A DNA stretch of 64,000 nucleotides. Source: Halomonadaceae bacterium T82-2 (lineage in GTDB: Bacteria; Pseudomonadota; Gammaproteobacteria; Pseudomonadales; Halomonadaceae). The translations under genes were made by a program, and so were the position numbers. This document shows positions 17,702-54,212 of this stretch, piece by piece (position 1 is the stretch's first letter; each line of letters starts with the position of its first letter). Below the pieces are notes generated by a model. The model saw only the letters and a program-made list of their open reading frames with translations, was not told the origin of the DNA and did no database searches. The stretch covers positions 248,001 to 312,000 of the forward strand of contig LSBP01000001.1 in NCBI GenBank assembly GCA_001577635.1. Direction: 5' to 3'.

Positions 17702-19018
17702 ATGCTCAAGACACTGTCACGCCCGGCCGTGAAACTGGTCGAGCGTTATCTGCCCGATCCCTACATCTTCGTGCTGCTGCTGACCCTGATCGCCGCCGCG
17801 GCCGCCATCGGCGTGGAACGCCAGACGCCGCTGGCCGTGCTGCGCTTCTGGGGCGACGGCTTCTGGAACCTGCTGAGCTTCTCGATGCAGATGCTGCTGG
17901 TGCTGGTCGCCGGCTTCATGCTGGCCAGCTCGCCGCCCGTACGGCGCCAGCTGGCTCGCCTCGCCACCCGTGCCGGCACCCCCGCCCGGGCCATCGTGCT
18001 GGTCACGCTGGTCTCGCTGGCCGCCAGCTGGATCAACTGGGGCTTCGGCCTGGTAGTGGGCGCACTGTTCGCCAAGGAGCTGGCCCGCCAGATCCGTGTC
18101 GACTATCGCCTGCTGATCGCCAGCGCCTATTCCGGCTTCGTCGTCTGGCACGGCGGACTGGCCGGCTCGATTCCGCTGGTGATCGCCACCGAGGGCCACT
18201 TCACGGCCGACCAGATCGGCGTGGTCCCCACCGGCGAGACGATATTCTCGCTGTTCAACCTGGCCATCGTCGTGGCGCTGTTCATCGCGGTGCCGCTGGT
18301 CAATCGGGCGATGCTGCCCGACGACGCCGACAGCGTGTACGTCGACCCCGAGCGGCTCGACACCCCCGCCGGCGAGGAACGCCCGGTGATCACGCGACCT
18401 GCCGAGCACCTCGAGAACAGCAAGACGCTGGCCTGGCTGGTGGGCATCCCGGGGTTGCTGTTCCTGCTCGATCACTTCCTGCTGCGCGGCGGCGGACTCA
18501 ACCTCAACATCGTCAACTTCCTGTTCCTGTTTCTGGCCATCGTGCTGCACCGCACCCCGCGCCGCCTGCTCGACAGCCTCCACGAAGCCATCAAGGGCGG
18601 CGCGGGCATCGTCATCCAGTTCCCCTTCTATGCCGGGATCATGGCGATCATGGTGCAGTCGGGCCTGGCCCAGACGCTCTCCGAGGGCTTCGTGTCGATC
18701 GCCAACGCCGACACCCTGCCGTTCTGGTCGTTCATCAGCGCCGGCGTGGTCAACCTCTTCGTGCCCTCCGGCGGCGGCCAGTGGGCGGTGCAGGCCCCGG
18801 TCATGCTGCCGGCGGCCCAGGCGCTGGGCGCGGACATCCCGCGTATCGCCATGGCCGTGGCCTGGGGTGACGCCTGGACCAACCTGCTGCAGCCCTTCTG
18901 GGCGCTGCCGGTGCTGGCCATCGCCGGTCTCAAGGCCAAGGACATCATGGGCTTCTGCCTGATCCAGCTCGTGGTCACCGGCGTGATCATCGCCCTGGGG
19001 CTCAGCTTCATCCCCTGA
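17702..19018 (+). CDS. Short-chain fatty acid transporter (AtoE family)
   Basis: RYLPDPYIFVLLLTL; INWGFGLVVGALFAKELAR; FVPSGGGQWAVQAPVMLPAA. Confidence 0.9.
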   Translation: MLKTLSRPAVKLVERYLPDPYIFVLLLTLIAAAAAIGVERQTPLAVLRFWGDGFWNLLSFSMQMLLVLVAGFMLASSPPVRRQLARLATRAGTPARAIVLVTLVSLAASWINWGFGLVVGALFAKELARQIRVDYRLLIASAYSGFVVWHGGLAGSIPLVIATEGHFTADQIGVVPTGETIFSLFNLAIVVALFIAVPLVNRAMLPDDADSVYVDPERLDTPAGEERPVITRPAEHLENSKTLAWLVGIPGLLFLLDHFLLRGGGLNLNIVNFLFLFLAIVLHRTPRRLLDSLHEAIKGGAGIVIQFPFYAGIMAIMVQSGLAQTLSEGFVSIANADTLPFWSFISAGVVNLFVPSGGGQWAVQAPVMLPAAQALGADIPRIAMAVAWGDAWTNLLQPFWALPVLAIAGLKAKDIMGFCLIQLVVTGVIIALGLSFIP

Positions 19019-19076
19019 CGCCACCCTGCCGGGCCGACCATGAGGTTAGCCTTGTTGCAACAACGAGGGGCACCAA

Positions 19077-19165
19077 GGGGCAAGCCGAAGAGGAGGTCCG
19101 GCGCCAGGGAAGGCGTCGGTAGCGCTCAGGGATGAGTCTATAGCGCCTCCTCGCAGGCTTGCCCC
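19077..19165 (+). repeat. Structured intergenic element, copy A (core 19082-19163)
   Basis: Aligns gaplessly over 82 nt with reverse complement of 51846-51927; nested helices listed in findings. Confidence 0.75.
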
Positions 19166-19274
19166 GAGCGTCCGACACGATCCACGATAGTCTTGGGGTC
19201 GAACGCCCCGGACGCATCGTGCCGGGGCAAAACGTGTTACACCTAAGGGAAATCCCGCGACACGAGGATGCCCC

Positions 19275-19784
19275 ATGGCCCCCGACGACATGCCCCGCCA
19301 GCACGAACTGACCATGACCGTGCTGATGACCCCCGACATGGCCAACTTCAGCGGCAAGGTCCACGGCGGCGCGATCCTCAAGAAGCTCGACGAGGTCGCC
19401 TACGCCTGCGCCAGCCGCTATTCCGGCAGCTACGTGGTGACGCTGTCGGTCGACCAGGTGCTGTTCAAGCAGCCGATCCATGTCGGCGAGCTGGTCACCT
19501 TCCTCGCCATGGTCAACCATGTCGGGCGCTCATCGATGGAGATCGGCATCAAGGTGGTCGCCGAGTCGATTCAGGAGAAGGTCATTCGCCACACCAACAG
19601 CTGCTACCTGACCATGGTCGCGGTCGACCCGCAGGGCAAGCCGGTCGAGGTGCCGCCGCTGCGCTTGGACACGGCGCTGCAGAAACGCCGTTTCGAGAAG
19701 GCCGCGCTGCGCCGGGAAATGCGCAAGGAAGCCGAGCGCGCCACCCGCGCGCACGACCATCAGTACGCGCAACGCTCATCCTGA
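19275..19784 (+). CDS. Acyl-CoA thioesterase (hotdog fold, YciA/BACH type)
   Basis: MTVLMTPDMANFSGKVHGGAILKKLDEVAYACASRYSG. Confidence 0.9.
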   Translation: MAPDDMPRQHELTMTVLMTPDMANFSGKVHGGAILKKLDEVAYACASRYSGSYVVTLSVDQVLFKQPIHVGELVTFLAMVNHVGRSSMEIGIKVVAESIQEKVIRHTNSCYLTMVAVDPQGKPVEVPPLRLDTALQKRRFEKAALRREMRKEAERATRAHDHQYAQRSS

Positions 19785-48209: not shown

Positions 48210-50003
48210 TCACCGGCACTCGCCGCCGGCCTGCGGCAGGCTGTCGCAAGCCGTCTCGGCCAGGGGCGCCGGGCTCGTCAGCCCGGGGCTCGCCAGGCGT
48301 CGGTAGGTGGCGCAATCGCGCATCAGCGAGGCATGATCACCGCTCGCGATCGGCCGCCCGCGCTCGAGCAGCAACACTCGTTCGGCCAGACGCGCCCAGC
48401 CCGGATGGTGCGAGATCAGCAGCAGCGAACGCCCGGCGAGATAGCCGGCCAGATTCGCGCGCAGCCGCGCCGCGGTGGCGGTGTCGAGCCCCTCGCCCGG
48501 CTCGTCCATGATCACCACCGGGGCGTCGCGCAGCAGGGCGCGGGCAATGCCCAGCCGGCGGATCTGGCCGCCGGAGAGCTTGAGCCCCTCCTCGCCCACG
48601 ATGGTGTCGTAGCCCTCGGGCAGCGCCAGGATCTCCTCGTGCAGACAGGCCAGTCGCGCCGCCTCGACCATCGCCGCCTCGTCGGCCTCGGGATTGCCCA
48701 GCAGCAGGTTGTCGCGCACCGTGGCATGGAACAGGTAGATCTTCTGCGGCACCACGGCGAGGCGTGCCCGCAGGTCCTCGCTGCGGTAGGCCTCGACCGG
48801 CCGCCCGCCCCAGCGGATCTCGCCGCGCTCGGCCGGCATCAGGCGCAGCAGCAGCTGCGTCACCGTGCTCTTGCCGGCCCCGCTCGGCCCCACCAGCGCG
48901 ACATGCTCGCCGGGGGCGATGGTGAGGTCGAGATCCGTCAGCGCCCAGGGGCCGTCGGCGGTATGCCGTGCGCCGACGCCGGCGAAGCACAGGGTATCGT
49001 CCTCGGGCGGCGGCGCCGGCTCGGCGGGGTCGGTGACATTGGGCGCGAGCGTCTCGAAGGCCCGCAGCCGCCGCGTCGCCGCCCGCAGCTGTCCCAGGGC
49101 CTGCCAGGCGCCGGGCAGCTGGGCGATCGCCTCGAAGCAGCCCATGACCAGCAGCACCACCGGGGCGAAGTCGACCGCCGCCAGCCCCGGCCCCTGCACC
49201 AGCGGCACCATCAGCCAGGCGGTGACCAGCACGGCGAGGTTGGTGAGCAGCAGCACACCGGCGCCGGATAGCCCCGACAGGTGCGCAAGCCGCGCCTGGG
49301 CCGCCAGCCAGCGTCGGCTCAGCTCATGAATCTCCGCGCGGCGGCGGGGCATGTCGCCGAACACGCTCAGCTCGCCCAGCCCCTCGACCGCATCCACCAC
49401 GCCGGCCTTGAGTTCCGAGGCGATTGCCACCCCCCGGCGGCCCGGCTCGCGCCCGAGCCGCTCGGCCAGCGCCGGCAGGGCCACGCCCGCCAGCACCAGC
49501 AGCGCCAGATTGACCAGCGCCACCGGCACGCTGTAGGCAGCCAGCACCAGCACCGCGCCGCCGAGGCAGATCAGTGCCACCACGGCGGGCGTCAGCAGGC
49601 GCAGATAGACGTTGTCCAGGGTGTCGATGTCCGAGCGCACGCGCGCCAGCAGGTCGCCGCTACGCAACCCCTGCAACTGCTGCGGCGACAACGGCTCCAC
49701 CTGACGGTAGAACCACACCCGCAGGCCGGTAAGCAACCGCAGGGTGGCATCGTGGCTGACCAGCCGCTCGAGATAGCGCCCGCCGGTGCGGGCGATCGAC
49801 AGGCCGCGGATAAGCGCCGCCGGGGTGAAGTAGTTGAAGTCCGCCGCGGCGAGCCCCGCCGCCGCCATGCTGGCCAGGAACCAGCCGGACACCGCCAGCA
49901 GCGCCATGTTGGCGGACACGGTCACCACGCTGAGCAGGATGCCCAGCGCGAAGTAGCCCAGATAGGGACGGGCGATCGACAGCCACCAGCGCAGGTCGCT
50001 CAT
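48210..50003 (-). CDS. cydC: Heterodimeric ABC exporter subunit for cytochrome bd assembly
   Basis: ABC TM domain; GPSGAGKST; KLSGGQIRRLGIARALL; overlaps cydD. Confidence 0.93.
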   Translation of the reverse strand: MSDLRWWLSIARPYLGYFALGILLSVVTVSANMALLAVSGWFLASMAAAGLAAADFNYFTPAALIRGLSIARTGGRYLERLVSHDATLRLLTGLRVWFYRQVEPLSPQQLQGLRSGDLLARVRSDIDTLDNVYLRLLTPAVVALICLGGAVLVLAAYSVPVALVNLALLVLAGVALPALAERLGREPGRRGVAIASELKAGVVDAVEGLGELSVFGDMPRRRAEIHELSRRWLAAQARLAHLSGLSGAGVLLLTNLAVLVTAWLMVPLVQGPGLAAVDFAPVVLLVMGCFEAIAQLPGAWQALGQLRAATRRLRAFETLAPNVTDPAEPAPPPEDDTLCFAGVGARHTADGPWALTDLDLTIAPGEHVALVGPSGAGKSTVTQLLLRLMPAERGEIRWGGRPVEAYRSEDLRARLAVVPQKIYLFHATVRDNLLLGNPEADEAAMVEAARLACLHEEILALPEGYDTIVGEEGLKLSGGQIRRLGIARALLRDAPVVIMDEPGEGLDTATAARLRANLAGYLAGRSLLLISHHPGWARLAERVLLLERGRPIASGDHASLMRDCATYRRLASPGLTSPAPLAETACDSLPQAGGECR

Positions 50004-51754
50004 GCCGGCCCCTCCCCGTCGGCGCCGGCCACCAGCCGGGCATAGAGTCCGCCGGCGGCCATCAGGGCCTCATGGCTGCCCTGCTCGCGGATGCGCCCGC
50101 CGTCGAGCACCACGATGCGATCGGCGTGGCGCACGGTCGCCAGCCGATGGGCGATGATCACCAGGCTACGCCCCTGCCCCAGCGCCTCGAGCGCCTCGAC
50201 AAGCGCCCGCTCATTGTCGGAATCCAGATGCGCGCTGACCTCGTCGGCGACCACGAAGGTCGCCTCGCGGACCAGTGCCCGGGCGATCGCCAGGCGCTGC
50301 GCCTCACCGCCGGACAGGCGCACCCCGCGTTCGCCGAGGGGCGTGTCGAGCCCCTGCGGCAGCTCGGCGACCAGCGCCTTCGCCTGGGCCTGCGTCAGCG
50401 CCCGCCACAGGGCCGCATCGTCGATGTCGTCGCGCCCCAGGCAGAGGTTGTCGCGCACCGTGCCGAAGAACAGCCGCGGCTGCTGGGGCACCCAGGCCAG
50501 CGACTCGCGCCAGGTGTCGATGTCGAGCTCGTCGAGCGCCACGTCGTTGACCGCGAGCCGGCCCGCCTCGGCGCGCAACAGGCCCAGCAGCAGCAGCGCC
50601 AGGGTGCTCTTGCCCGCCCCCGAGGGGCCGACGATGGCCAGCGTCTCGCCCGGGGCGATGGACAGGTCGATGTCGGCGAGCGCCTGCACGCCGCCCGGAT
50701 AGGCGTAGGACAGCCCTTCCAGCGCCACCCGCGGTGGCTCGCCGGGCGTCAGGACGTCGCGCCGCGTGCCGCTCCAGGGCCGGGCCGAGGTGTCGAGCAG
50801 CTCGACGATGCGCTCGGCCGCACCCAGCGCCTCCATGCGGGCATGGTAGACGCTGCCCATGTTGCGCAGCGGCAGGTAGAACTCCGGCGCCAGCAACAGC
50901 ACCAGAAAGCCCGCCTCGAAGCCCAGCTCGCCCCACAGCAGGCGAAAGCCGATCAGCACGGCGACCATGGCGATGCTCACCGTGGCCAGGAACTCCAGCA
51001 CCAGCGAGGAGACGAAGGCCAGCCGCAGGACCTTCATGGTGCTGGCCCGGTAGTCGTCGGAGAGCCGCTCGATCAGCCGCGCCTCGCGCCGTCCCAGGTT
51101 GAAGACCTTGAGCGTGGTCAGCCCCTGCAGCGCGTCCAGGAAATGCCCCGACAGCCGCCCCATGCGCCGCCACTGGCGCTGGTTGAGCTTCTCGGCGCCC
51201 TTGCCGATGAAGATCATGAACACCGGGATCAGCGGCGCGGTGACCAGCAGGATCAGCCCCGAGACCCAGTCGATGGGCAGGATCACCGCGAGGATCGCCA
51301 GCGGAATCAGTGCGGCCAGCGCCGTCTGCGGCAGATAGCGGGCGTAGTAGGCCTCGAGGTGCTCGACGCCGTCGGTGACGCTGTTGACGATGTCGCCGGT
51401 CTGGGTGTCGCGCTGCCAGGCCAGCCCCAGCGCCTCGAGCTGGTGCATGAGCCGGTCGCGGATCGCCAGCTTGACCGTGGCGGCGGCGGCGAAGGCGCAG
51501 CGCTCGACCGCGTAGGTCAGCCCCGCACGCACCAGCAGGATCGCCAGCATGCCGGCGAAGGCCGGCCACAGGGTCGCCAGCGGCGTGCCCTGGAAGATGG
51601 CGCCGTCGGTGACGTGGGCGAGCAGGGTCGCCTGGAGGATCAGCAGCACGCCGCTGGCCAGACCCAGGCCGATGGCCCAGCTGACCGGCGTGCGCACGCG
51701 ACGGCTTTCCTGCTTGAGCCAGTCGCGGGGTCTTGCCGTGGTGGAAGTCTGCAT
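50000..51754 (-). CDS. cydD: Heterodimeric ABC exporter subunit for cytochrome bd assembly
   Basis: GPSGAGKSTLALLLLGLL; RLSGGEAQRLAIARALVREATFVVADEVSAHLD; linked to cydC/cydAB. Confidence 0.93.
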   Translation of the reverse strand: MQTSTTARPRDWLKQESRRVRTPVSWAIGLGLASGVLLILQATLLAHVTDGAIFQGTPLATLWPAFAGMLAILLVRAGLTYAVERCAFAAAATVKLAIRDRLMHQLEALGLAWQRDTQTGDIVNSVTDGVEHLEAYYARYLPQTALAALIPLAILAVILPIDWVSGLILLVTAPLIPVFMIFIGKGAEKLNQRQWRRMGRLSGHFLDALQGLTTLKVFNLGRREARLIERLSDDYRASTMKVLRLAFVSSLVLEFLATVSIAMVAVLIGFRLLWGELGFEAGFLVLLLAPEFYLPLRNMGSVYHARMEALGAAERIVELLDTSARPWSGTRRDVLTPGEPPRVALEGLSYAYPGGVQALADIDLSIAPGETLAIVGPSGAGKSTLALLLLGLLRAEAGRLAVNDVALDELDIDTWRESLAWVPQQPRLFFGTVRDNLCLGRDDIDDAALWRALTQAQAKALVAELPQGLDTPLGERGVRLSGGEAQRLAIARALVREATFVVADEVSAHLDSDNERALVEALEALGQGRSLVIIAHRLATVRHADRIVVLDGGRIREQGSHEALMAAGGLYARLVAGADGEGPA

Positions 51755-51845
51755 AAGGGAGTGCGGGAACGTCAGTCGTCGGGGGAACAGGGAATCCGGC
51801 TTGGAGATTCTTTCACAACCGGTAAGCGGGATGGGCTTTCCCGGC

Positions 51846-51927
51846 GGCAAGCCTTCGCGAGGGCGCTGTAAACCCCTCCCTGGGCGCTACCTTTGCCATC
51901 CATGGCAAAGGACCCTCGCTTCGCCTT
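51846..51927 (-). repeat. Structured intergenic element, copy B
   Basis: Reverse complement aligns gaplessly with 19082-19163; perfect 8-bp hairpin CCTTTGCC-N6-GGCAAAGG. Confidence 0.75.
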
Positions 51928-51974
51928 GTCCCCCGGCGCCCATCATGCCGATAGTCTGAAAACGAGCTCTTAGT

Positions 51975-54212
51975 CTAAAGGCTGTCGGCGCTGCCCGCTT
52001 GACGTGCATCAAGCTTGTCGGGACACGTTGCCTCGAGTATCGCTTGGAGCCGCCCGGCCAGCTCGCGCCAGCGGCGCAGGCGTGCCTTGCGCCCCGTCGC
52101 CGTCCAGCCGGCGGGCACCTCGCGGCCCTGGAACAGCGGCGCCGCCAGCGCCTGCCACTCGGCCTCGTCCAGCGCGGAGGGCGCGCGATGACGGGCGATG
52201 CGCCAGGCCCGGGCCAGCCAGGGCCGTGCCAGCGCCAGCTCGCCACCGCCCGCGGCGAACCAGCCCAGCCGCGCCACTGTGGCCGCGTCGAGTGTCGGCA
52301 CGGGAGCCTCGTCGAGCAGCGCCACGACCAGGGCGACATCGAGATCGCGCAGCTCGGCGGCCAGCAGGGTCGGCAGCAGCTCGTGGAACTCGGCCCGCCA
52401 GCCGGCCAGCCGCCGACGGGCGGCATCGTGAAGCGAAAGTCCCATCATCACGGCATGCTCGCCGCTGGAGGCCTCGCGGGAAAGGCCCAGGCGCAGAGTG
52501 ACGTAGCCCCGGGAGCGCCAGAAGGCCAGCAGGCCGGGCTCGCCGCCGAAGCTGGTGCCGAGGGCGTCGATGCCGGCGGCGCGGGCCCGCTCGGCCACGG
52601 CCGCGAGCAGCCGCGAGCCCACCCCGCGCCGGCGTGCCGCGGGATGCACGGCGATACGCTGGATACGCCACCAGCGGGTCTCGGCCGCCTCACGCCAGCC
52701 GCCGTGCACCGCCAGCGACTGGGCCAGCAGGTGGCCGCGCGGGCGGCGCTGGCCATGGTGGACCGCCGCGGCCAGATCCGCCGGCAACCCGCCCTCGGCC
52801 TGGACCACACACACGCCCACGCAGTGCCCGCCGACCCGGGCCGTCAGCAACCGGGCGTCGGGGGCATCGAGCAGCTGGCGCAGATCGCCGGGGGTGGTGC
52901 GGTAGTGGGCCTGGACCAGCAGGCCGAAGAGCTCGGTCAGCGCCGGGGTGTCACGGGCCAGGGCCGCCCGGTCGAGTTCGGCCAGTTCCACCGGCTCGTC
53001 GGCGAGTGCGGCGGTGATCCGGGCGTCGTCCACCGGTTCGGCGTCGAGCAGCAGCAGCTCGCGGGTCAGCGCCTCGAGCGGGTCGCCCGGTGCCCAGCGC
53101 ACCGGGGTCGTGAGCCGGCAGGCCCGCCAGTCCGGGGTCTCGCGCGCGAGCCGCTCGCGAAAGCGCACCGCGAAGCCGCGCCCGGTGCCCTCGTAGCCAT
53201 GCACGGTGGTGGCGAAGGCGAGCCGCGGAAAGGCGGTGAGCCAGCGCCCCAGCAGCGGCGCGGGGATCGCCGCCGCCTCGTCGACCAGCAGCGTCGGCGC
53301 GGCGCTCGGTTCGCCCCTCGCCTCGGCCAGGGCCGCCATCACGCCATCCGGCGGCAGAAAGCGCAGCCGCGCCGGGCCCTGGTCGGTGGTCACCACAAAG
53401 ACATTGGCCTCACGACGGCCCTCCGGCAGCAGCGCCGCCAGGCGCTCGAACACCGGCTCGACGGCGCCGGGGCGCGGCGCGGTCAGCCATAGCTCGCGTT
53501 CGCCGCCAGCCAGCCGCCGGGCCGCGGCAATGCCCAGCGCCGCGCTCTTGCCGCGACCGCGATCGGCGCTGATCACCAGCGGGCGGCGTCGGCGCAGGCG
53601 GCTCAGGCGGCGCACCGCTGCGGCCTGATCGGCGCTCAGGCAGTCCGGATCGGTCACGTCCGGCGGCGCCGCGGCCTCGCCGGCCGCCGGCGGCGTCAGG
53701 TCGGGAAGCGTGGCCTCGGCCGGCCAGCGCAGCACCGTATCGGCGGTGCGCAGGCAACGGGCCAGCCGTGCCAGGGTATGGGCACTGAGCGAGTCGACGG
53801 CATGGGGCCAGCTGGCCAGGCGGGCATAGTCGGCGTCGGGGAACGGCGCGTCGGTGCGCCAGTCGGCGGGCGTCAGCAGCACCAGCAAGCCACCGGCGCG
53901 CACCGTGCCGGCGACGGCGCCGAAGGCCTCGGGGTCGAAGCCGCCGCCCGGGGAAGCGGCGTCCACCACCACCAGCTCGTGCTCGCCGCCCAGCCGGGTG
54001 CGCGCCTTGGCGGCGGGCAGCACGGGGATATCATCGGCGGGGGCGGTGGGGCCCAGCCACAGCGGCGCCTGCCAGTCGCCGCCACGCCAGATGCCAAGGG
54101 CCCGCTCACGCACCATCGCCGCCTCGCCGTCGGCCCACAGCAGGCCACGGTGGCGGCGATCATTGAGCGTCTTGCGCAGCGCCGCGAGGGCGGCGATCAG
54201 GGAGTCGTGCAT
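51975..54212 (-). CDS. tmcA: tRNA(Met) cytidine acetyltransferase
   Basis: VISADRGRGKSAALGIAAARRL Walker A; TLLVDEAAAIPAPLL; GNAT domain IQRIAVHPAARRRGVGSRLL; GTSFGGEPGLLAFW. Confidence 0.92.
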   Translation of the reverse strand: MHDSLIAALAALRKTLNDRRHRGLLWADGEAAMVRERALGIWRGGDWQAPLWLGPTAPADDIPVLPAAKARTRLGGEHELVVVDAASPGGGFDPEAFGAVAGTVRAGGLLVLLTPADWRTDAPFPDADYARLASWPHAVDSLSAHTLARLARCLRTADTVLRWPAEATLPDLTPPAAGEAAAPPDVTDPDCLSADQAAAVRRLSRLRRRRPLVISADRGRGKSAALGIAAARRLAGGERELWLTAPRPGAVEPVFERLAALLPEGRREANVFVVTTDQGPARLRFLPPDGVMAALAEARGEPSAAPTLLVDEAAAIPAPLLGRWLTAFPRLAFATTVHGYEGTGRGFAVRFRERLARETPDWRACRLTTPVRWAPGDPLEALTRELLLLDAEPVDDARITAALADEPVELAELDRAALARDTPALTELFGLLVQAHYRTTPGDLRQLLDAPDARLLTARVGGHCVGVCVVQAEGGLPADLAAAVHHGQRRPRGHLLAQSLAVHGGWREAAETRWWRIQRIAVHPAARRRGVGSRLLAAVAERARAAGIDALGTSFGGEPGLLAFWRSRGYVTLRLGLSREASSGEHAVMMGLSLHDAARRRLAGWRAEFHELLPTLLAAELRDLDVALVVALLDEAPVPTLDAATVARLGWFAAGGGELALARPWLARAWRIARHRAPSALDEAEWQALAAPLFQGREVPAGWTATGRKARLRRWRELAGRLQAILEATCPDKLDARQAGSADSL
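51999..52012. promoter_or_regulatory. FNR/ANR-like box upstream of cydDC (within 3' end of tmcA)
   Basis: TTGACGTGCATCAA vs TTGATNNNNATCAA. Confidence 0.5.

Follow-up and report, generated by a model that had tools for sequence, protein, structure and literature searches.

Two related segments of the window, a 64,000-nt stretch of the genome of Halomonadaceae bacterium T82-2, belong to a dispersed repeat family whose members share a covarying fold and fixed loop sequences, have been gained or lost between species, and are biased in their orientation and position relative to genes. These two members, designated copies A and B (Table 1), are probably best understood as non-autonomous, REP/MITE-like mobile repeats that insert predicted bivalent CsrA/RsmA-binding hairpins into transcripts. 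Given that two hairpins with loops of the CsrA/RsmA type are carried on a mobile repeat, the element may be a jumping CsrA-binding site. Transcription of the copies, their binding by CsrA/RsmA, and an effect on mRNAs or on free CsrA are what we infer from sequence.

Table 1. Positions of copies A and B, their parts and the adjoining genes in the window.
Feature	Position	Strand	Basis
Copy A, full model match (113 positions)	19067..19179	+	cmsearch with model R1, 102.4 bits, E 1.6e-22
Copy A, structured core	19077..19165	+	P1 19077-19086/19156-19165; P2 19090-19096/19146-19152; sequence and fold
Copy A, hairpin P3	19098..19119	+	loop AGGGAA 19106-19111 (ANGGAN); sequence
Copy A, hairpin P4 with conserved 3' strand	19121..19145	+	loop AGGGAT 19128-19133 (ANGGAN); sequence
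Copy B, full model match	51830..51943	-	cmsearch with model R1, 122 bits, E 3.3e-27
Copy B, inserted unit (~170 nt)	51801..51970	-	orthologous sites: missing in sister species G002 and in G011
Copy B, hairpin P3	51890..51911	-	loop ATGGAT 51903-51898; sequence
Copy B, hairpin P4 with conserved 3' strand	51864..51888	-	loop AGGGAG 51881-51876; sequence
Short-chain fatty acid transporter gene	17702..19018	+	Pfam SCFA_trans, E 1e-150; stop codon ~50-60 nt before copy A
4HBT-family thioesterase gene, 3' of copy A	19275..19784	+	Pfam 4HBT, E 1.5e-16
tRNA(Met) cytidine acetyltransferase (TmcA) gene	51975..54212	-	Pfam NAT10_TcmA_helicase, E 4e-49; stop codon ~32 nt before copy B
ABC transporter (CydD-like) gene, 3' of copy B	50000..51754	-	Pfam ABC_membrane and ABC_tran

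The element was originally predicted as an 82-nt structured repeat in two copies, and recomputing the ungapped alignment of copy A with the reverse complement of copy B gave exactly the same coordinates and 61/82 identities, the runner-up match to copy A within the window reaching 42/82. Helices P1, P2 and P3 of copy A and the helices of copy B were likewise reproduced exactly from the sequence, and the calculated folding energies are -60.4 kcal/mol for copy A (z -5.4 against dinucleotide shuffles) and -54.5 kcal/mol for copy B (z -3.4). When the window was searched with a covariance model, only copies A (102 bits) and B (122 bits) matched, and the next real candidates had E values of about 0.4. 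Two features of the prediction needed revision. The strand noted as conserved between P3 and P2, which occurs in the window at A and B only (0 matches expected by chance), is indeed conserved but is not single-stranded: it forms a second hairpin of its own, P4 (CCC-ANGGAN-GGG), with the sequence GCGCTC-AGGGAT-GAG in copy A and GCGCCC-AGGGAG-GGG in copy B. As for the extent, the 82-nt alignment is exact, but the real unit is longer, with a core of ~108 nt that has sharp ends and, at copy B, an inserted unit of ~170 nt as delimited by the empty site in the sister species.

Homologues are numerous within and beyond the genome. A covariance model (R1) built from 27 copies detected 53 full-length copies in the T82-2 genome, plus two half copies located at contig ends, and a pattern search found 53 places (33 forward, 20 reverse), the reversed-pattern control giving 0. 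The element is present in 14/14 congeners and in 18/46 genera searched, at 1-62 copies per genome in related Halomonadaceae, and its exact core pattern matches named genomes of Halomonas, Billgrantia, Vreelandella, Onishia, Salinicola, and Chromohalobacter. With a second model (R2), built with diverged copies included, diverged relatives were found in 97/246 genomes of the order (52/114 genera) and in 46/274 genomes of the class, the copy counts per genome in these two scans being read as "at least". The element was not found in the phage collection searched, and a phage origin is rejected for want of any match there; in the plasmid collection it lies on one 1.8-Mb Halomonas replicon only, and Enterobacterales plasmids carry more distant relatives. 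The repeat is not described in the literature searched.

Comparison of orthologous sites reveals gain or loss. At the copy B site, a 171-nt segment of the T82-2 genome corresponds to 2 nt in the sister species G002, with flanks 92-96% identical, and in a second relative, G011, ~73 nt without the element correspond to ~228 nt. Copy A is absent at the orthologous site in both of these relatives, the two examined. A mobile, REP-like dispersed family, one of the interpretations offered at the outset, is thus borne out by ~55 copies in the genome itself, by related genomes, and by the empty site in the sister species. As regards MITE features, the outer inverted repeats are imperfect, and comparison of the copy B junction with G002 shows no clear target-site duplication. 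Some insertions are old: a copy between dgcA-like and dgcB-like genes occupies a shared position in six or more species. An in-frame copy also lies inside recB (L103:4016-4128 of T82-2, with counterparts at L056, L127, and L185), where the reading frame stays open in four genomes and ~35 residues are added (GQSGGHSTGMSNVAPKDG...TAPPR), which recalls the palindromic elements known from insertions in protein-coding genes.

The same comparisons bear on a further early suggestion, that the copies act as cis-regulatory RNAs of the genes downstream, here the thioesterase and the ABC transporter. Copies A and B are both in the sense orientation relative to their downstream genes, and the dgcA-like/dgcB-like site is shared across species, as such a role would predict; but neither A nor B is present in G002 or G011, and the genes adjoining the 53 copies are functionally unrelated. 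For A and B this explanation is therefore largely refuted, and we regard it as very improbable. The placement of copy A upstream of the thioesterase gene is incidental. Position follows the stop codon of the upstream gene and not the start of the downstream one.

Behind genes whose 3' ends face it, the element typically lies 20-50 nt (~30 nt) past the stop codon, and most copies should therefore sit in 3'-UTRs or between the genes of operons. Based on codon-model gene calls, the ratio of sense to antisense copies in gaps with codirectional neighbours is 28:7 in the T82-2 genome and 36:18 in other Halomonadaceae, or 64:25 combined (p 4e-5), and divergent gaps are depleted in copies (8/78 vs 50/152, p 1e-4). 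The flanks are unconserved, and neither a promoter nor a T-run is shared among them, which argues against an autonomous sRNA gene, another of the early readings. Taken together, the sense bias, the position, and the unconserved flanks lead us to expect the copies on host transcripts, mostly as the strand carrying the GGA loops. It is conceivable that such a structure, 3'-terminal or intercistronic, acts by stability alone, either as a REP-like shield against 3' exonucleases or as a terminator. The very stable folding, the clustering of copies ~30 nt past stop codons, and their avoidance of divergent gaps would all fit. However, TTTT occurs within 40 nt downstream of only 2/51 copies, so the element is not an intrinsic terminator, and protection alone leaves the invariant ANGGAN loops amid freely rewritten stems unexplained; an explanation by stability alone is accordingly judged improbable.

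Selection for pairing, originally suspected from two sequences, is evident from many. In 99 independent copies from other genomes, standard pairs make up 97.3% of pair cells (42-51% with the partners slid), covariation is 0.39 against 0.16 after shuffling, and changes on both sides occur at 21/30 pairs. In 44 distant copies from other families, 94.6% of the cells are paired and covariation is 0.94 against 0.21 after shuffling, and a set of 24 copies from other families gives 0.86 against 0.21; almost every pair of P1, P2, and P3 has been rewritten by compensatory changes. The stems also have a polarity. G-U outnumbers A-C by 94:24 in the Halomonadaceae copies and by 20:1 in the distant set with the non-pairing column 69/82 left out, the copies not being independent in either count. 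A G-U pair becomes A-C when read from the complementary strand, which identifies the GGA-bearing strand as the one that folds. Single-stranded DNA can form G-T pairs too, so this excess indicates polarity and not RNA as such.

Amid these rewritten stems, the loops are fixed. The P4 loop is ANGGAN in 53/53 copies examined in the T82-2 genome (51 full-length and two halves), and of two further degenerate copies, one (L106) retains it and the other (L107) has lost it; the P3 loop is ANGGAN in 38/41 short-form copies. In the 44 distant copies, P4 has ANGGAN in 44/44 despite different stem sequences, and the P3 loop contains GGA in 44/44, as ANGGAN in 36 and in 8 other loops, mostly pentaloops; loop positions 1, 3, 4, and 5 are fixed and positions 2 and 6 are free, a conservation that is partly ascertained in this set of top-scoring matches. 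For loci L111-L190, the retrieval pattern already contained the P4 loop. Such a hexaloop, ANGGAN closed by a C-G pair, has the form of a CsrA/RsmA site: in the published hexaloop of CsrA, RsmE, and RsmN, contacts are made to the A and to GGA, and the N positions are variable (PMC7652899; PMC3791407). Both loops are thus predicted CsrA/RsmA recognition motifs, a point that the original prediction overlooked. The two GGA sites of copy A (19108-19110 and 19130-19132) are 19 nt apart, inside the 10-55 nt over which CsrA binds dual sites (PMC6028588), and a csrA gene is present in 39/39 genomes searched.

Mechanistically, a core of ~108 nt, in a unit of up to ~170 nt, would be carried as part of host transcripts, and its outer stem would present two C-ANGGAN-G hairpins as a bivalent site for a CsrA/RsmA dimer. 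The copies may recruit CsrA/RsmA locally; alternatively, ~55 copies, or roughly 100 sites summed, may titrate it. Several observations count against this reading. Antisense copies make up a quarter to a third of those with codirectional neighbours, and the copies found between leuD and leuB point in opposite directions in different species. The 8-bp stem of P3 is longer than those of most hairpins selected by CsrA in SELEX, which mostly have four or fewer contiguous pairs (PMC7652899), and in ~12 copies of the T82-2 genome the P3 loop is replaced or destroyed by a 51-nt insert. CsrA binding also leaves unexplained a strand 3' of P4, UUYACRGC (columns 82-89 of the distant alignment; window 19136-19145), which is almost invariant though mostly unpaired. 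The opposite strand of the 51-nt insert has a hairpin, CCGCC-ATGGAT-GGCGG, in the long-form copies (L009, L015, L020, L022, and others in the T82-2 genome). An independent repeat is rejected as the nature of this insert, because in the DNA examined it occurs only inside element copies, two of them degenerate.

The main rival explanation is a purely selfish DNA repeat, in which the hairpins and GGA loops serve as single-stranded DNA features for an HUH transposase (Y1, RAYT- or IS200-like) and the likeness to CsrA sites is coincidental. Mobility and dispersal are what it predicts, and the G-T wobbles would stabilise hairpins of single-stranded DNA as well, so that G-U over A-C is no proof of RNA. 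It is further favoured by inverted head-to-head pairs outside Halomonadaceae, as in REPINs: 9/9 close pairs in genome G042 (L230-L234, L238, L240, L244) are so arranged, as are all the other close pairs seen outside the family, at L061, L294, L347, L350, and L354. With this pairing, a transcript in either direction would hold exactly one sense copy. Moreover, Halomonadaceae that carry the element have Y1_Tnp genes more often than those without it (17/26 vs 2/11, p 0.013). On the other hand, the copy-rich genomes G008, G011, and G012 have no Y1_Tnp match at all, and six Y1_Tnp (RAYT-type) loci with ~2 kb of surroundings contain no copy; a RAYT/Y1 transposase as the mobiliser is rejected on these two grounds. 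The GTAG foot is confined to Halomonadaceae copies, its column not being conserved in the distant set. Nor would a transposase be expected to fix A-N-G-G-A-N exactly in two loops or to impose a bias for the sense orientation. A purely selfish repeat therefore seems unlikely, and mobile delivery of predicted CsrA/RsmA hairpins remains the preferred reading.

In a broader and more tentative form, which we would put forward as a possibility and no higher, mobile elements across the Gammaproteobacteria disperse bivalent CsrA/RsmA sites into 3'-UTRs and operons, and copy number, which ranges from 1 to >60 between sister species, may set a distributed CsrA sponge and rewire the Csr regulon, or else the element may use CsrA to make its insertions tolerable. 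If so, mobile CsrA-type hairpins, borne by many families and present in dozens of copies per genome, would be a route by which sister species come to differ in the gain, loss, and titration of regulon members.

Among catalogued RNAs, the closest likeness is to TwoAYGGAY (RF01731; Weinberg et al. 2010, PMC2864571), which has been predicted to bind CsrA (Gardner and Eldai 2014, PMC4333381). Both consist of an outer stem with two side-by-side hairpins whose GGA loops have the CsrA motif, and both have a GUUUAC-CGG-type strand 3' of the second hairpin. The TwoAYGGAY model reaches its gathering score (43 bits) at R1/R2 copies in G042 and G039, so the two are either homologous or built on a common architecture. 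It gives no match in the window or at 19 copies of the T82-2 genome at E<=10, and none at gathering among 16 further loci; as it misses the Halomonas copies, these are not filed as members. The element differs in having a short P4 with a one-sided conserved bulge and loops of ANGGAN rather than AYGGAY, and in being a high-copy mobile repeat; the literature searched does not describe TwoAYGGAY as dispersed in this way. The second relative, Ysr224 (RF02770, Yersinia sRNA 224), is annotated as an sRNA, apparently on the strand opposite the GGA hairpins, and its model is limited to Yersinia-like sequences. Its reverse complement is the element, with P3 as CCGCGCC-ANGGAU-GGCGCGG and P4 as AGCC-UAC-AUGGAU-GUA-UUUACGGCG, and a Yersinia similis plasmid locus (L358:1994-2100) matches Ysr224 at 133.9 bits on one strand and R2 at 66 bits on the complementary strand. 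CsrA motifs or a repeat family were not seen mentioned for Ysr224. A ryfA match (179.5 bits) adjoins this plasmid locus, and at L025:2436-2510 there is a near-threshold match to the Xanthomonas sRNA sX9 (42.1 bits; gathering 44). Rfam families, at gathering and at E<=10, recognise none of the T82-2 copies. The element is thus half catalogued: it has relatives in TwoAYGGAY and the antisense Ysr224, but neither model recognises the Halomonas copies. These two scattered entries are brought together by the element in a single, widespread family, most of which escapes the Rfam models.

Like REP sequences and REPINs, the element is a short, dispersed, palindromic intergenic repeat, often located behind genes and forming inverted doublets in some genomes; unlike REPIN-RAYT systems, it has no GTAG/GGAG foot conserved outside Halomonadaceae and no copy linked to a RAYT transposase at the six RAYT-type loci examined. 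The known antagonists of CsrA/RsmA, a global regulator, are a small number of dedicated sRNAs. With the sRNAs CsrB, RsmY, and RsmZ the element shares multiple ANGGA hairpins per molecule, but it has two sites, lacks its own promoter and terminator, and is spread over ~55 dispersed loci, in contrast to one or a few sRNA genes.
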